Assembly (NCBI GenBank): GCA_016872595.1
Contig: VGZJ01000011.1
Coordinates: forward strand, 1 to 46,086
DNA: 46,086 nucleotides
Direction: 5' to 3'
DNA from: Planctomycetota bacterium
GTDB lineage: Bacteria > Planctomycetota > Planctomycetia > Gemmatales > Gemmataceae
Shown here: positions 25,209-32,716 of the stretch, piece by piece
Layout of the letters: the number at the start of each line of letters is the position of its first letter
Numbering within the stretch: position 1 is the first letter of the stretch
Notes under the pieces: model-generated
What the model saw: the letters and a program-made list of their open reading frames with translations, nothing else
The model's database searches: none
What the model was told of the DNA's origin: nothing
Program-made: the position numbers and the translations under genes

Positions 25209-27386
25209 TCACCCCTTGCCGGATTGGAACACCTCGTCGAAGTGGCGCGCGGCGGTGGCGAAACCCTTCATGAGTACCGGGTCGAACTCGCCCGGCGAGT
25301 CGTTGGTGAGCAACCGCACGACCTGTGCATGGGTGAGTGCCGGGCGGTGTGGTCGCTTGGTGCGCAGCGCCTCGTACACGGCGATGATTGCTACGACGCG
25401 CGCGGAGAGCGGAATCTGCGCGCCGCGCAAACAGTCCGGGTAGCCGCAGCCGTCCCAGCGCTCGTGGTGCGCGCGGGCCACTTCGCACGCTAAGTTCAGT
25501 TCGGGCACCGCCACCGGCCACCGCCCCGCGGTGTCGGCCAGCACCTGCGCGCCCATCACCGTGTGCTGCTGGGCAATGGCCTGTTCTTCCGGTTCGAGTG
25601 CGGTCGGCTTCATCAAGATCGAGCTGGGCAAGAGCAGCACACCGGCGTCGTGGAGCGGCGCGGCGCGCACGAGCAGTTCGACGAACTCCGGGTTGCGCAA
25701 GCGGGCGTACTCGCCCTCGTCCGGGGTCGCCGCCGCGAGGGCCCGCACGTAGCGCCCGCAGCGGTCGTGGTACCCGCGCAGGACAAGGCCCAGTTCTTCG
25801 AGGAGCCGTGTAACGCCGAACGCCAGTGGTTCCCCGGGCGCGATCTTCGTGATGGGGGCGGCGCGCGACGGCGCGGGCGCGGCCACCGGCACCGGTGTCG
25901 GGGCCACTCGTCGCCCGAGCAGCCCGCGTGCGCGGGCTTGGAACGCGGGCGGGAGAAACGGCTTTTCCAAGTAGTCGTCGGCCCCGGTCATCAGGTAGCC
26001 GCCGAGCGACTCGGACGGAAGGTCACCGGACACCATTAGGGTGCGCGTGCGCTCGCGCAGCTTCTCGTCGGCGCGGACGCGCGCGAGCAACTCCGGCCCA
26101 CTCATCTCCGGGAGGTTCACGTCGAGTACGAGCAGGTCAAACGGCTGTTTCTCTAACAGCGCCCACGCCGCTTTCCCGTCGCCGGCCTCGGTGCACGTGC
26201 AATCGCGCAGCAGGCTCACCATCAGTCGGCGGAGCCGCGGGTCGTCCTCGACCACGAGCACCCGCGGCACAGCGGGGCGCTCGGCGCTCTCGCGCACAGA
26301 CGCCCAACGCGCGTACCCGGCGAGTGTCGCGGCGACGGCGCGGGCCGACTGGTACCGCCGGTCACGGTCCCGATCCGTGAGTTGCCCCACGAGCGCGCCG
26401 AGTTCGTCCGGCAGCTCCGGGCGTGCCTTGCGTACGTCCAGCGGCGGGGCCGTGAGGCGCGCGGTCAGGTCGCGCAGCACGTTCCCGGTCTCGGGGAACG
26501 GCTCGCGCCCGGTCAGGGCCCAGTACATCGTGGCCCCGAGGCTGAACAGGTCGGCGCGCGCGTCAACCTCGTGCGAGGCCTGTGCTTGCTCAGGGGCCAT
26601 ATATCCGATGGTGCCGAGCAGGAGGCCCGGTTCGGTCATCCGATTCTGCGGGCGCAGGGCCAAGCCGAAGTCGAGGAGCTTCGCCTGCCAGTCCGGGGTG
26701 ATGAGGATGTTGCTCGGCTTGATGTCGCGGTGGACGAGGCCGAACCGATGGGCCTCGGCGAGTGCTTCGGCGATCTGCCGGAACAGGTCGCACACGCGGT
26801 TCGGGGGCAATGGGCCGGTGGCGTTCACCGCGGCGTGTAGGTCGGCCCCGCCGATCAGTTCCATCACGTAGTAGTCGCGCGGTGACGCGCCCGGCGGGGC
26901 GTAGCGCCCGGCGTCGAGGCACGAGACAATGTTCGGGTGCTGGAGCTTCGCAACGGCGCGGGCTTCGCCGTAGAAGCGGTGCAGCAGCCGCGGGTTCGGC
27001 TCGCCGGCGCGGGCCATGACCTTTACCGCGACTTGGCGACGCAAGTGCAGGTGTTCGGCCCGGTATACGGTGCCCATGCCGCCGCGCCCGAGCAGGTCGA
27101 GGAGCCGATAGTGACCGAGAACGAGTTCCCCGGCCCCGCCCTCGCGCACCTTGTCGGCTTGGAACTTCGTCAGCAGGTGACATTGCACGAGGCGGTCGAG
27201 CAGATCGGTGTGCGGGTCGGGTCGGGCTACCGCGTCCTTCAGCTCGCGCGGCAACTCGTCCCACTCCTCCGGCAGCACGACCCATTGCTCAATGAGGCGC
27301 GAAAGACCGCGCGCTTCCCCACCTCCGTCCGAGAGCTCGAAATCGGTTTCGGAGAGCGGATCGTGGGGGGCAAGGACGACAGACAT
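25209..27386 (-). CDS. Ser/Thr kinase - receiver - HD-GYP fusion protein
   Basis: The ATG at 27386 gives 725 residues. Residues 24-90 form the helical segment common before planctomycete kinases. The kinase (about 92-360) keeps GRGGMGTVY, Lys122, HRD (219-221), DFG (239-241) and APE (264-266), so it should be active. The receiver (about 375-490) has Glu380-Asp381-Asp382, the phospho-acceptor Asp422 and Lys475. After a Pro/Ala linker, the HD-GYP part (about 520-720) has His540, His579-Asp580, His608, His640-His641 and GYP (648-650). The usual Lys after HD is Val583, and the usual Asp of the DVYDAL-type motif is Ala669, so c-di-GMP hydrolysis is doubtful. There is no membrane segment. Confidence 0.93.
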   Translation of the reverse strand: MSVVLAPHDPLSETDFELSDGGGEARGLSRLIEQWVVLPEEWDELPRELKDAVARPDPHTDLLDRLVQCHLLTKFQADKVREGGAGELVLGHYRLLDLLGRGGMGTVYRAEHLHLRRQVAVKVMARAGEPNPRLLHRFYGEARAVAKLQHPNIVSCLDAGRYAPPGASPRDYYVMELIGGADLHAAVNATGPLPPNRVCDLFRQIAEALAEAHRFGLVHRDIKPSNILITPDWQAKLLDFGLALRPQNRMTEPGLLLGTIGYMAPEQAQASHEVDARADLFSLGATMYWALTGREPFPETGNVLRDLTARLTAPPLDVRKARPELPDELGALVGQLTDRDRDRRYQSARAVAATLAGYARWASVRESAERPAVPRVLVVEDDPRLRRLMVSLLRDCTCTEAGDGKAAWALLEKQPFDLLVLDVNLPEMSGPELLARVRADEKLRERTRTLMVSGDLPSESLGGYLMTGADDYLEKPFLPPAFQARARGLLGRRVAPTPVPVAAPAPSRAAPITKIAPGEPLAFGVTRLLEELGLVLRGYHDRCGRYVRALAAATPDEGEYARLRNPEFVELLVRAAPLHDAGVLLLPSSILMKPTALEPEEQAIAQQHTVMGAQVLADTAGRWPVAVPELNLACEVARAHHERWDGCGYPDCLRGAQIPLSARVVAIIAVYEALRTKRPHRPALTHAQVVRLLTNDSPGEFDPVLMKGFATAARHFDEVFQSGKG

Positions 27387-27574
27387 GCGACGCTCCGCGC
27401 GGGGCCGTGGTCTGCAACTGTAGTGCGCGGACGGGGACGGGGGGCCGCGGGGCAAAAGAACGACGCCCCTCACGATAAGCAACGGGAGAGGCCGTCATCG
27501 CGCCTGCGAACCGGTGTGAGCTAGAGTTCCGGTGCCGGGCGCACCGGGCGCGCCCACCTCCCGACGTGTGGACA

Positions 27575-29608
27575 ATGGCCGATTGGCTTTACTGGACCGC
27601 GGGTATCGTAGCCGCTGCGCTGGCGGGTGCCGCGTTCGCCCGCGCCGCGACGCGGCGCACCGGGCCACCGCTCGCACCGGTGCCGTCGCCCCCGCCGGCC
27701 CCGGTTGTGAGCGAACCGCCCGCGCCCGAAGTCCCGTACCGCTTGTTGTTCGACATACACCCCGCGCCGCTCTGGGCGTTCGACGAAGCGAGCCTGCGGT
27801 TCCTCGCCACCAACGGCGCGGTTCACGCCCGGTACGGCTACACGAGTGATGAACTGTTAAGCCTGACGGTTCGAGACGTGCTCGCGCGCCCGTGCGCCGA
27901 CGCCCTGATCGGCGGGCTGAATGCGGACGCGCTCTTCCCGGACGACGTTCTGGTATGGGAGCACCGCACGAAGGCCGGGGCGGTGCTACCGCTGGAGGTG
28001 GTGACCGCGCGGTTCGAGTACGGCGGTCGCCCCGCGCGACTCGTAGTCGCCACCGACCTCACCGACCGGCGCCGCGCCGAGACCGCGCTGCGCGCGAGTG
28101 AGGGACGGCTCCGCGACGTGCTCGCCAACATCCCGTGCGGCGTGTTCTGGAAGGACCGGGCCTCGATCTATTTGGAGTGCAACGACCGCGTCGCTCGCGA
28201 CTACGGCCGAGACGTTGCCGGGGAAGTAGTCGGTCGTACCGACGACGACTTCCTGACACCCGACGCGGCCGAGTACGCGCGGGCATGTGACCGGAGCGTG
28301 ATGGAATCCGGCGAGCCGCTGCTGAATACCGACGAGGTGCGCCCCGGTGCGGACGGCAAAGCCTCGCAACTCCTCGTCAGCCGCGTGCCCCTCCGCGACG
28401 GGGCCGGCGCGCTGATCGGCGTCCTCGGCGTGTACCAAGACGTGACCGAGCACAAGCGCCTTGAGGCGCAGTTCCGGCAGGCACAAAAGATGGAGGCCAT
28501 CGGCCGGCTCGCGGGCGGCATCGCCCATGACTTCAACAACCTGCTCACGATCATCACGGGTAACACGCACCTCCTTCAGCACCTGCCGCCGGGCGACCCC
28601 GAACAGCCGCAACTGATCGAAGACATCAACGACGCGGCCACGCGCGCCGCGGCGCTTACCCGCCAGTTGCTCACGTTCAGCCGCAAACAGCCGACGCGCC
28701 CCGAGGTAATCGACCTGAACGAGATCGTGAGCGGCCTCTCGAGCCTGCTCCGGCGGCTCATCGGCGAGCGCGTGACGGTGCGCACGGAACTGGCACCGAA
28801 CCCGGTGCGCGTCCGCGCCGATCGCGGGCAGATCGAACAGGTGGTGATGAACCTCGCGGTGAACGCGAAGGACGCGATGCCCGACGGCGGTACGCTGACC
28901 ATCGGCACCGGCGAGCTGGCTGGCGCGGGCCGGTTCGCGCGCCTCGTCGTGCGCGACACTGGCACCGGTATGACCGCCGAAGTGAAGCGCCACCTGTTCG
29001 AGCCGTTCTTCACCACGAAGGACATCGGGAAGGGCACCGGCCTCGGGCTGGCGACCGTGTACGGGATCGTGCAACAGTCCGGCGGGGCAATCGAGGTCGA
29101 ATCCGAGTTGGCGGTCGGAACCACGTTCGACGTGCGGTTCCCGTGGTGCGACGGCGCGGCGCGCTCGTCGGCGGAAATCTCTGGGCTGGGCCTTTCGGGG
29201 CGCACCGGGTTCTCGTTCCGGCGCACCGTGCTGCTCGTGGAGGACGAGGAGCGGCTCCGAAAGATGGTCCGTTTGACCCTCGAAACGCAGGGTTGCGTAG
29301 TGACCGAGGCGAACGGGGGCGAGGCCGCGCTCGCGCTGCTGACCCCGGAGCGACACTTCGACCTGCTCGTAACCGACCTCGTGATGCCGGGCATCGACGG
29401 GCGCGAGTTGGCGGCGCGGGCGCGAGCCGTGCGCCCGGACTTGCCCATCGTCTTCGTCTCCGGCTACGTGCCCGACCAGCGCCGGCTTGAAGGGCTGGCG
29501 CGGGCCGTGTTCCTGCCGAAGCCGTTCACGCCCGGCGAACTGGTGAAGACGGTCGAGCGGCTGTTCCGCCCGGCGAAGGGCGCGCCCGTCGCGGGGGGCG
29601 TCACATGA
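27575..29608 (+). CDS. PAS-PAS hybrid histidine kinase with receiver
   Basis: The ATG at 27575 gives 677 residues; GTG at 27566 is possible and neither has a strong ribosome site. One membrane segment lies near residues 6-24, then a Pro-rich linker. PAS 1 spans about 55-165 and PAS 2 about 175-290. The phospho-acceptor is His318 (GGIAHDFNNLL). The ATPase part has Asn430, an Asp-x-Gly-x-Gly box near 461, and a glycine box (GKGTGLGL). The C-terminal receiver (about 550-665) has the phospho-acceptor Asp601 and Lys649. A 188-base gap separates it from the divergent kinase fusion. Its stop overlaps the next start as ATGA. Confidence 0.94.
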   Translation: MADWLYWTAGIVAAALAGAAFARAATRRTGPPLAPVPSPPPAPVVSEPPAPEVPYRLLFDIHPAPLWAFDEASLRFLATNGAVHARYGYTSDELLSLTVRDVLARPCADALIGGLNADALFPDDVLVWEHRTKAGAVLPLEVVTARFEYGGRPARLVVATDLTDRRRAETALRASEGRLRDVLANIPCGVFWKDRASIYLECNDRVARDYGRDVAGEVVGRTDDDFLTPDAAEYARACDRSVMESGEPLLNTDEVRPGADGKASQLLVSRVPLRDGAGALIGVLGVYQDVTEHKRLEAQFRQAQKMEAIGRLAGGIAHDFNNLLTIITGNTHLLQHLPPGDPEQPQLIEDINDAATRAAALTRQLLTFSRKQPTRPEVIDLNEIVSGLSSLLRRLIGERVTVRTELAPNPVRVRADRGQIEQVVMNLAVNAKDAMPDGGTLTIGTGELAGAGRFARLVVRDTGTGMTAEVKRHLFEPFFTTKDIGKGTGLGLATVYGIVQQSGGAIEVESELAVGTTFDVRFPWCDGAARSSAEISGLGLSGRTGFSFRRTVLLVEDEERLRKMVRLTLETQGCVVTEANGGEAALALLTPERHFDLLVTDLVMPGIDGRELAARARAVRPDLPIVFVSGYVPDQRRLEGLARAVFLPKPFTPGELVKTVERLFRPAKGAPVAGGVT

Positions 29609-30789
29609 GCGGGCGCGTGCTGTTCGTTTCCGACGACGCGGGTGCGCACCGGGCGTTCCGGGCCGCGTTCGCCCCGGTTCAGCGCGACTGGGAGGTGACC
29701 GCGGCGCGCGGCGGCGCGGACGCGCTCCTGCGCCTCGAGCGCGGCGAGTACGACGCCCTCGTCGCCGAAGCCCAACTCGCCGGCACCGGCTGCGCCGAAG
29801 TGCTGCTCGAAGTGCGCCGCCGGCACCCGCCGACCGCGCGCATCGTACTCGCCGACATCGCGCGGCCGGGCGAACTTGTGCACCTCGTCGCCCTCGCCCA
29901 CCGCGTACTGCCCAGCACTTGCGCGCCGGCCGAGCTGTACGCCGCGGTCCACCGCGGGTTCGCCCTGCGCGCGCTCTTGGGCAATCCGGCGCTCGCCTCG
30001 GTGGTCGGGCGGCTCGCCAGCGTCCCCACGCTCTCCGCGCACTATGCCCGCATCGCCGACGAACTGATGATGCCAGAGTACTCACTCGCCGCGGTGGGCG
30101 AGTTGGTGGCCCAAGACCCCGGCATCGCGGCCCGGTTGCTGCAAATGGCGAACTCCGCGCTCGTCGGACTGCGCAAGCCGGCCACCACTCCCGGCCAAGC
30201 GGTACGCGTGCTCGGTGCGGACCTGACGCGGACGCTCGTCCTCGCGGCCGACCTGTTCTCGCGGTACAACCCGAACTCGCTGCGCCCGTTCTCTATCGAG
30301 ACCCTCTGGGACCATAGCCAGAAGGTGGCCGAACTCGCGGGCCTGATCGCCACGGACCTGAACGCGGGCGAACAGGTCGCGCGCGAGTCCGCGCTCGCGG
30401 GCCTGTTCCACGACATTGGAAAGTTGGCCCTCGCGAGCCAACTGGCAGGGCCGTACAAGGAGGTGATGATGCTGATGCGCGCCGACGGCCTGACCGCCGC
30501 GGCGGCTGAGCGGCGTGTGCTGGGGACGACACACGCCGAAGTCGGGGCGTATCTACTCGGGTTATGGGGTTTGCCGGACGCGCTCGTCGAGGCCGTGGCG
30601 TGGCACCACGAGCCAGGCGCGTGCCCGGGCACCGCAATTTCAGCACTAACCGCGGTACACGCGGCCGACGCACTCTTGCGCGCACCGGATGGCGCGAAGC
30701 CCGACGCCGAGTACCTCGCGCGATTGGGGCTGTCGAGCCGCTGGGAAGAGTGGGGCTTCCTCCGCGACCGCCCGCGCGCAAAGGAGTGA
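29605..30789 (+). CDS. Degenerate receiver - HDOD domain protein
   Basis: The protein has 394 residues. The receiver part (1-125) keeps the acidic pair SDD (9-11) but has Glu55 where the phospho-acceptor Asp is expected (YDALVAEAQLAG), and the conserved Lys is replaced (VLPSTC). It may be locked or sense in another way. The HDOD part (about 130-385) keeps LWDHSQKVAELA, a complete HDIGK (269-273), GTTHAEVGAYLLGLWGLP and WHHEP. HDOD proteins usually act as non-catalytic signalling scaffolds. The 4-base ATGA overlap with the hybrid kinase implies coupled translation and a shared pathway. Confidence 0.92.
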   Translation: MSGRVLFVSDDAGAHRAFRAAFAPVQRDWEVTAARGGADALLRLERGEYDALVAEAQLAGTGCAEVLLEVRRRHPPTARIVLADIARPGELVHLVALAHRVLPSTCAPAELYAAVHRGFALRALLGNPALASVVGRLASVPTLSAHYARIADELMMPEYSLAAVGELVAQDPGIAARLLQMANSALVGLRKPATTPGQAVRVLGADLTRTLVLAADLFSRYNPNSLRPFSIETLWDHSQKVAELAGLIATDLNAGEQVARESALAGLFHDIGKLALASQLAGPYKEVMMLMRADGLTAAAAERRVLGTTHAEVGAYLLGLWGLPDALVEAVAWHHEPGACPGTAISALTAVHAADALLRAPDGAKPDAEYLARLGLSSRWEEWGFLRDRPRAKE

Positions 30790-31165: not shown

Positions 31166-32716
31166 TCACACCTTCACATCGAGGACCGACACGGTGGCCG
31201 GGCGACCGGCGGCAAGCGCGCCGGCCTCGCGCCGGTGCCGTGCGGGAAGGTCGCTCGCGGCGCGCACGTCGAGTAGCACTTCGGTGTAGCCCTCGGCTTC
31301 GAGCTCGGCGCGTAGATCGCCTATGTCGGCGCGCACGCGGTCGCGGGATGTCGCGCGGTCGAGGTAGATCGTCGCGCGGAGTTGGTCGGCGGCGAGGCCG
31401 GCCTCGATCCACGTTTCGCCTAGTTCGGTCAGCGGGACGTGCATGAACACGCGGAACCGGCCTGCGCGCTCGGCGTCCGGCTGGTCGGGTCGAGATTGTA
31501 GTTCGAGGGCGAGGCTAAGTGTGCGCCATACGCCGCCATCGGGGAAGGGCACTTGCAGGTAGTACGGCGTGCCGGCGGCCTGCGCGAGCACCTGCCCGGC
31601 CTGCTGCGACTCGATTCCGTGCAGCGCGGCCTCGGCCACAGGCGCGCGGGCCGCGCCGCCGAGCTCGCTCACCGCTTGCAACAGGCGCAGCAAGTCGCCC
31701 TTGAGGTCCGAGCCGACATCGGCGCGCACGGCTTCGGTACTCGCGCGCGAGTGCGGTTCACGCGCCTGTGTCGCGCCGTCCTTTGCCGCGGCTGGTGTCG
31801 GTGCGTCCGGTACTTCAGGCGCGTCGGTGGTCGGCTTCGCTGCGGCCGGTGCGTCGGACGCTTCGGCCGTTTCGACGAGGCGTGCGAGCTTGGCTTCAAA
31901 GTGCCGCCCGCCGTTTTCGACCAACCGTTGCAGTTCGGTCGCGTCGGGCGGGCGCGCTACTCCGGGCACTATGGAATCGAGCGTATAGCGCACGGCGACG
32001 GCCGCGGCGCGCACCGGCGCGGCCGTCTGCGGCTGTGTGAGCGCCGCGAGTTCCGCGCGAAGAGGCGTGACCGTCGAACCGAGGTCCGGGGCCGGTACAC
32101 GTAGGAGCGCCGTAGCGACTTCGGTCGCCAAGCCCGGCGCGTTTGGCGGCGGCGACTTCAGTACGACGCCGGCCGCGCCGCGTTCGACTTGAAGGACGTA
32201 GCGCCCGCCGGACGCGAGCGGCTCCGCGGTCGCGGCGCGCGCGGTGTACTCGGCACCGTCGATGGCGACGAGGACGGGCCCGTCCGGAGCCGGCGCCAGT
32301 ACGTCCACCACGGCGAGGCGCGGGGCCGCGGCCGGCGCGCCGGTCGACTGCGCCGGCGCGGTCGCTGCGCGTTCGGGCGCGCTCGTGCCAGCGACCGGCG
32401 CGCCCTCTGTTGTGGCCGGGGGCATGGCATGCGCAACGCGCACCGTTGCGGCGGTCGGTGGCGGCGCAAGTTGTGCGCTTTGCGGGGCCGGCGCGAATAA
32501 TTCCAGTGTGGGCGCGATCTGCGTTCCCGAGGGTACGCGAACGACGAGTGCCGCACCCGGCCGAAACGTTGGCAGTCCGGCGGGCGGGCGCACCGTCAGT
32601 TCCGTGCCGTTTACGGTGAGCGCGACTTCGCGCAGGCTGACCGACGTTACAGTCGCTTCGAGGAGCGCGCCGATTGGTACGGTCGCGAGATTCCCGCCTA
32701 CGACGGGGCGCGTCAA
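31166..32716 (-). CDS. FliK-like flagellar hook-length protein (putative)
   Basis: The frame begins with TTG at 32716; a stop lies 6 bases before it in frame, so the start is TTG or an internal codon. It encodes 516 residues. The N-terminal half is Ala/Pro/Thr rich, with two barrel-like segments (LLEATVTSVSLREVALTVNG and RYVLQVERGAAGVVLKS), as in FliK-type rulers. The C-terminal 130 residues, from VWRTLSLALELQ, with MHVPLTELGETWIEAGL, look like the compact FliK substrate-switch domain. Sequence identity with classical FliK is low. The following flhX supports a flagellar role. Confidence 0.72.
   Translation of the reverse strand: MTRPVVGGNLATVPIGALLEATVTSVSLREVALTVNGTELTVRPPAGLPTFRPGAALVVRVPSGTQIAPTLELFAPAPQSAQLAPPPTAATVRVAHAMPPATTEGAPVAGTSAPERAATAPAQSTGAPAAAPRLAVVDVLAPAPDGPVLVAIDGAEYTARAATAEPLASGGRYVLQVERGAAGVVLKSPPPNAPGLATEVATALLRVPAPDLGSTVTPLRAELAALTQPQTAAPVRAAAVAVRYTLDSIVPGVARPPDATELQRLVENGGRHFEAKLARLVETAEASDAPAAAKPTTDAPEVPDAPTPAAAKDGATQAREPHSRASTEAVRADVGSDLKGDLLRLLQAVSELGGAARAPVAEAALHGIESQQAGQVLAQAAGTPYYLQVPFPDGGVWRTLSLALELQSRPDQPDAERAGRFRVFMHVPLTELGETWIEAGLAADQLRATIYLDRATSRDRVRADIGDLRAELEAEGYTEVLLDVRAASDLPARHRREAGALAAGRPATVSVLDVKV

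Follow-up and report, generated by a model that had tools for sequence, protein, structure and literature searches.

We show that the kinase–receiver–HD-GYP protein P0001, encoded within a window of 46,086 nucleotides (the whole stretch of DNA that was analysed), belongs to a conserved pseudo-enzyme clade of single origin that lies inside an already known architecture, and that the unusual part of this clade is an inherited loss of the active site paired with the loss of a coupling helix. Judging from the residues that have changed, we think it very likely that the HD-GYP domain of P0001 has no meaningful rate of c-di-GMP hydrolysis. For the further proposal, that the domain binds c-di-GMP in a non-hydrolytic, regulatory role and modulates the Hanks kinase to which it is joined, we would put the chances at about even.

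Architecture and distribution of the kinase–receiver–HD-GYP proteins

The P0001 gene (25209..27386, minus strand) encodes 725 amino acids followed by a stop codon and comprises, according to its translation, Pfam and the orthologues, an N-terminal region, a Ser/Thr kinase, a receiver, a tether and a degenerate HD-GYP domain. The initial annotation had placed the gene correctly, leaving its strand unstated, and the order of domains returned by the search it proposed is Pkinase, Response_reg, HD_5. Since the assembly is in 590 contigs, an assembly or reading-frame error that fused separate genes had to be considered; against this, the same full-length architecture occurs in one open frame in independent genomes, including single-contig ones, and full-length orthologues share 72–82 % identity with P0001 (82 % over the whole length for L017), so that such an artefact is already refuted by the orthologues and its probability is negligible.

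The Hanks-type Ser/Thr kinase domain (26337..27110, minus strand; residues 93–350; Pfam Pkinase, E 2.9e-42) has an intact K122, E141, HRD 219–221 (H219-R220-D221) and DFG 239–241 (D239) by direct reading and alignment, and K122, E141, D221 and D239 are found in all or nearly all relatives. With its VAIK Lys, αC Glu, HRD Asp and DFG Asp in place, P0001 carries the residues that define a Hanks-type Ser/Thr kinase, and ATP-dependent phosphotransfer is predicted. The receiver domain (25935..26261, minus strand; residues 376–484; Pfam Response_reg, E 1.8e-20) likewise has D381, the phospho-acceptor D422, S453 and K475 intact in the alignment, and so presents the acidic pair, phospho-Asp, Ser/Thr and Lys by which a response-regulator receiver is recognized. 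Reading and alignment thus bear out the first description of both domains, in which K122, HRD, DFG, D422 and K475 were said to be kept.

The three-domain architecture is not unique to P0001. It is carried, mostly at full length, by 68 of 102 sampled Gemmatales genomes and by 65 of 95 genomes of the family (E <= 1e-90); among 391 sampled other genomes of the phylum it was not found at E <= 1e-70, a threshold that distant versions would escape. This survey of planctomycetes, which the initial annotation had suggested, bears on its view of P0001 as an ‘unusual’ signal integrator: that view does not hold for the architecture, which is common in Gemmatales and in which most copies outside the clade keep an intact HD-GYP site, but it does hold for the inherited pair of changes. 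Organisms with named records of the architecture are Gemmata, Fimbriiglobus and other Gemmataceae; these come from a contig scan by kinase motifs that was flooded with unrelated kinases and gives organism names, not distribution. Among the open-access papers searched, none dealt with a Ser/Thr kinase that carries an HD-GYP domain, and none with Gemmata HD-GYP proteins beyond a 2005 census.

Three genes of this type are present in the source genome, namely the window gene and copies on contigs 27 and 6. The contig 27 paralogue (54 % identity to P0001) is degenerate. The contig 6 paralogue (L003/L086; ~45 % identity over the full length) has the same kinase–receiver–HD-GYP order but, unlike P0001, possesses a complete HD-GYP site, in which no ligand is missing, and a helical linker of 50 residues without Pro; it is expected to be an active phosphodiesterase.

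Residue states and origin of the degenerate HD-GYP domain

The degenerate domain (25212..25814, minus strand; residues 525–725, by alignment to PA4781 and PmGH) belongs to the HD-GYP family by sequence and by fold: Pfam HD_5 covers residues 573–704 (E 5.1e-20), the model of the domain has a pLDDT of 95.3, and its best fold matches are PA4781 of Pseudomonas aeruginosa (4r8z; Z 26.5, rmsd 2.4, 208 residues aligned) and PmGH of Persephonella marina (4mcw/4mdz; PMC4159591; Z 25.4, 193 residues aligned), with c-di-GMP-bound DvhD at Z 20.1 over 190 aligned residues. PA4781 is also the closest solved relative in sequence (E 5e-34); its deposited structure is described as a bimetallic HD-GYP protein, and the Lys of HDxxK and the metal Asp, both missing from P0001, are present in it. 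The arrangement of the domains is not fixed by the full-length model of P0001 (pTM 0.49).

According to the alignment, the domain keeps D580, H608, H640, H641, D645, G648-Y649-P650, R678 and R681, whereas it has lost Glu at V535, His at Y539, Lys at V583 and Asp at A669; compared with PmGH it shows the further changes D183 to G533 and D308 to E672. The initial annotation had pointed to Val583 in place of Lys and Ala669 in place of a metal-ligand Asp, and a gap-free alignment to PA4781 confirms both. It was also right that the HD pair (H579 and D580) and GYP are present, but not that the domain ‘keeps its histidines’, given that Tyr539 stands in P0001 where PmGH has its first metal His, H189. 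A histidine does stand one position off, at 540; its candidacy as a substitute ligand is not supported, His540 not being conserved across the clade. The domain is more thoroughly disabled than was first seen, as Y539 and V535 show; G533 and E672 were missed as well. In particular, the ligand set of an active HD-GYP phosphodiesterase (H...HD...H...HH...D, together with the HDxxK Lys) is interrupted at Y539, A669 and V583, and the E/D-T-G signature of trinuclear members is interrupted by V535 at the position of PmGH E185, where Glu or Asp occurs in 0/47 clade members. What the domain does share is the combination seen in a DvhD-like receptor, metal-site loss with the base-contact Arg kept: R678 and R681 are retained, and four ligand positions and Lys583 are changed.

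These states were followed through an alignment of 106 sequences, sorted by residue state into 47 degenerate copies (Ala, Ser, Thr or Gly at 669, with H641), 50 canonical copies (Asp at 669, with H579) and 9 partial or unusual ones. In PmGH numbering (as in PMC4159591), all 47 degenerate copies keep D222, H250, H276, H277, D281, G284, Y285, P286 and L310, four of which (D222, H250, H276 and H277) belong to the eight metal ligands of PmGH, while of the other four E185 and D305 are kept in none of them, H189 in 9 and H221 in 18; residues 669 and 641 set the class and their two columns are not independent evidence, as the other columns are. K225 (residue 583 of P0001) is likewise absent from every degenerate copy. 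At the base-contact positions, R314 (R678) is Arg in 45 copies and Lys in 2, K317 (R681) is Arg in 47/47 and Y285 (Y649) is invariant. Near the site, E531 is a newly conserved Glu (98 %), which could in principle act as a substitute metal ligand.

In a tree built from the kinase and receiver, with the HD-GYP columns excluded, all degenerate copies fall on one branch (SH-aLRT 100), with a single change at residue 669 and several changes at other positions. The observation is not due to chance: the L017 orthologue is 82 % identical, and Ala, Ser, Thr or Gly replaces Asp throughout one supported clade. The cutting site was thus lost once, in an ancestor, and the domain was preserved afterwards, which suggests that it turned into a sensor or docking module with a part in kinase control. 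The clade spans six genera, its complete copies show no truncation, and the intact copies have 50 conserved columns, of which 33 remain conserved within it. For the HD-GYP domain, dN/dS is 0.03–0.21 in nine degenerate pairs and 0.015–0.08 in four canonical pairs, and in most pairs it exceeds that of the kinase, which indicates purifying selection on the degenerate domain that is somewhat weaker than on the kinase in most pairs. This excess, together with the disappearance of several active-site residues, might be taken as the mark of a functionless, decaying remnant; considering that all nine values lie well under 1 and that conserved columns and full length have persisted across the genera, we regard decay as very improbable.

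One genome (G006, contig 20) carries two degenerate kinase–receiver–HD-GYP genes in tandem, from different branches of the clade (L062). Altered receivers occur in some degenerate copies (L062, 5942-8155 on the minus strand; L055; L041–L044), examples being D381 changed to P/Q/S/G, K475 to H and D422 to E, and in these copies receiver control may have changed too.

The second inherited change concerns the linker between the receiver and the HD-GYP domain (25815..25934, minus strand; residues 485–524), which is rich in Pro in the clade of P0001, itself included, and differs there in length from copy to copy. The canonical copies compared all have (47/47) a linker of 50 residues with a Pro-free core of 41, whose hydrophobic pattern peaks, of the periods tested, at 3.5; in the degenerate clade the linker has 36–72 residues, 15 % Pro and Pro in every copy, and the AlphaFold2 pLDDT of P0001 falls below 50 at residues 494–513. 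We infer that a rigid coupling helix gave way to a flexible tether in the degenerate clade. A linker change that simply followed from the loss of catalysis is not supported by three proteins outside the clade (L094, L114 and L118; n=3), in which the sites are altered and the 50-residue, Pro-free linker is kept.

Catalysis and the proposed nucleotide binding and kinase control

The loss of hydrolysis put forward in the initial annotation is well supported by sequence, because V583 and A669 are combined with Y539, V535 and E672, a set inherited by the whole clade, and because sister copies also lack the His of HD. The losses at the positions of E185 and H189 would not be decisive alone, since RpfG is an active enzyme although it lacks both (PMC4159591). 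Together with the residual activity that PmGH retains in the E185A and D305A mutants, where activity is strongly reduced (PMC4159591), and with the presence of H579 and D580 in P0001, RpfG lends something to the idea that the domain is still enzymatic, weakly or in another way, and slowly hydrolyses c-di-GMP, pGpG, cGAMP or a further substrate with one or two metal ions. However, K225 and D305 are absent in 47/47 degenerate copies and H221 in 29/47, and of the PmGH mutants H189A, H221A, K225A and D308A, each of which essentially abolishes activity (PMC4159591), H221A and K225A correspond to just such losses; moreover, the HD-GYP phosphodiesterases so far on record are di- or trinuclear. We therefore consider residual or altered catalysis improbable.

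Binding without cutting is suggested by the part of the site that persists. In PmGH, D222 bridges the G–M pair of metals and E185 the M–H pair, H189 is assigned to the H site, and E185 and D305 are taken to influence the M–H pair (PMC4159591); by elimination, and from the D222 bridge, H250, H276 and H277 would be the G-site ligands together with D222. P0001 keeps equivalents of D222, H250, H276, H277, GYP and R314, and the GYP-side metal (D580, H608, H640 and H641) and the guanine-binding pocket are probably kept with them. PmGH differs from P0001 in having a GAF domain and catalytic activity at a trinuclear site, and P0001 from PmGH in lacking E185, H189, K225 and D305 equivalents and in its fusion to a kinase and a receiver. 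The case for binding without cutting draws mainly on a PmGH crystal subunit that contained only the G-site iron and held intact c-di-GMP (PMC4159591), a state resembling that predicted for P0001. A second precedent is DvhD of Desulfovibrio vulgaris (9rbz), a degenerate HD-GYP protein that is a c-di-GMP receptor at 99 nM without hydrolysis, dimerizes in a c-di-GMP-dependent manner and is less stabilized by c-di-GMP in the R650A and Y652A/R653A mutants (PMC13090378). Like P0001, DvhD has Arg at two base-contact positions of the alignment; unlike P0001, it has lost HD (SQ) and HH (MN), binds without metal and is a membrane protein with PAS and dCache domains, whereas in P0001 both HD and HH persist and the fusion partner is a Ser/Thr kinase. 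The predicted c-di-GMP binding by P0001 thus fits both the residues retained and the precedents of PmGH and DvhD.

We suggest that the HD-GYP domain would be a pseudo-phosphodiesterase without cutting activity on c-di-GMP and that, on its flexible tether, it would serve as a c-di-GMP-responsive regulatory module: binding may alter its dimerization or contacts, and in turn the trans-autophosphorylation of the Hanks kinase. Many Hanks kinases are activated by dimerization. The receiver would provide a second input, probably through phosphorylation by the adjoining hybrid histidine kinase.

GYP and HH could also be kept for the fold or for protein contacts alone, and the domain might then be a docking or dimerization module without nucleotide binding, whose GYP face brings in a GGDEF protein or some other partner, or which just dimerizes the kinase. 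GYP, considered important for contact with GGDEF proteins, is present in 47/47 degenerate copies, a flexible tether is suited to recruitment, and the degenerate HD-GYP proteins NosR (altered to HG-GTP; PMC12570481) and ECA3548 are thought to act via partner proteins. NosR of Burkholderia pseudomallei (NF053512) resembles P0001 in combining a receiver with a degenerate HD-GYP domain; it differs in its HG-GTP motif and in having no kinase, while P0001 keeps HD and GYP, loses the Lys and the last Asp, and scores 109 bits against the NF053512 model, under the cut-off of 400. Pure docking, however, does not predict the retention of D580, H608, H640 and H641 or of pocket positions 678 and 681, and we hold it to be rather unlikely beside the regulatory binding of c-di-GMP.

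Genome context and probable c-di-GMP turnover

The kinase gene is divergent from a gene for a hybrid histidine kinase (27566..29608, plus strand; PAS, HisKA, HATPase_c and receiver domains by Pfam), and this pairing is conserved: relatives of the hybrid kinase (54–73 % identity) divergently adjoin six close orthologues of P0001 (L017, L018, L019, L020, L021 and L023). The hybrid histidine kinase would be the best candidate phospho-donor for D422. It is followed by a gene for an HDOD protein with a receiver-like N-terminus (29605-30789, plus strand), the start of which overlaps the end of the hybrid kinase gene. Further along the window, a 516-aa ORF (31166-32716, minus strand) contains a Flg_hook (FliK-like flagellar hook-length control) domain.

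Domain searches of the source genome returned two GGDEF proteins (both GGEEF), six HD_5 matches, three intact HD-GYP domains among its proteins, three weak PilZ matches and no EAL protein. Given two cyclases of the GGEEF type and three HD-GYP domains with an intact site, c-di-GMP is probably both made and degraded in this cell. Two of these proteins carry FHA domains, namely a diguanylate cyclase with an intact GGEEF (L015; G000 contig 3, 11332-11805) and an intact HD-GYP protein that also has a GAF domain (L010; G000 contig 19, 23806-24306). Since FHA domains read phospho-Thr, c-di-GMP turnover in the source organism may receive input from Ser/Thr kinases. A separate degenerate HD-GYP protein (L012; G000 contig 39, 19472-19846) has VMDCGM instead of the usual xHDIGK and keeps HHE and GYP.

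Finally, we tentatively extend the regulatory reading from P0001 to its relatives: it is conceivable, if still somewhat doubtful, that a Gemmataceae clade of kinases is gated by c-di-GMP via a tethered, mono-metal pseudo-HD-GYP domain, one polypeptide thereby linking c-di-GMP, Ser/Thr phosphorylation and two-component phosphotransfer. If this is true, Gemmata-type planctomycetes would sense c-di-GMP by means of a kinase, and, with intact and degenerate paralogues in the same genomes, the passage from an enzyme to a putative receptor, with its tie to the loss of the coupling helix, would be directly testable.
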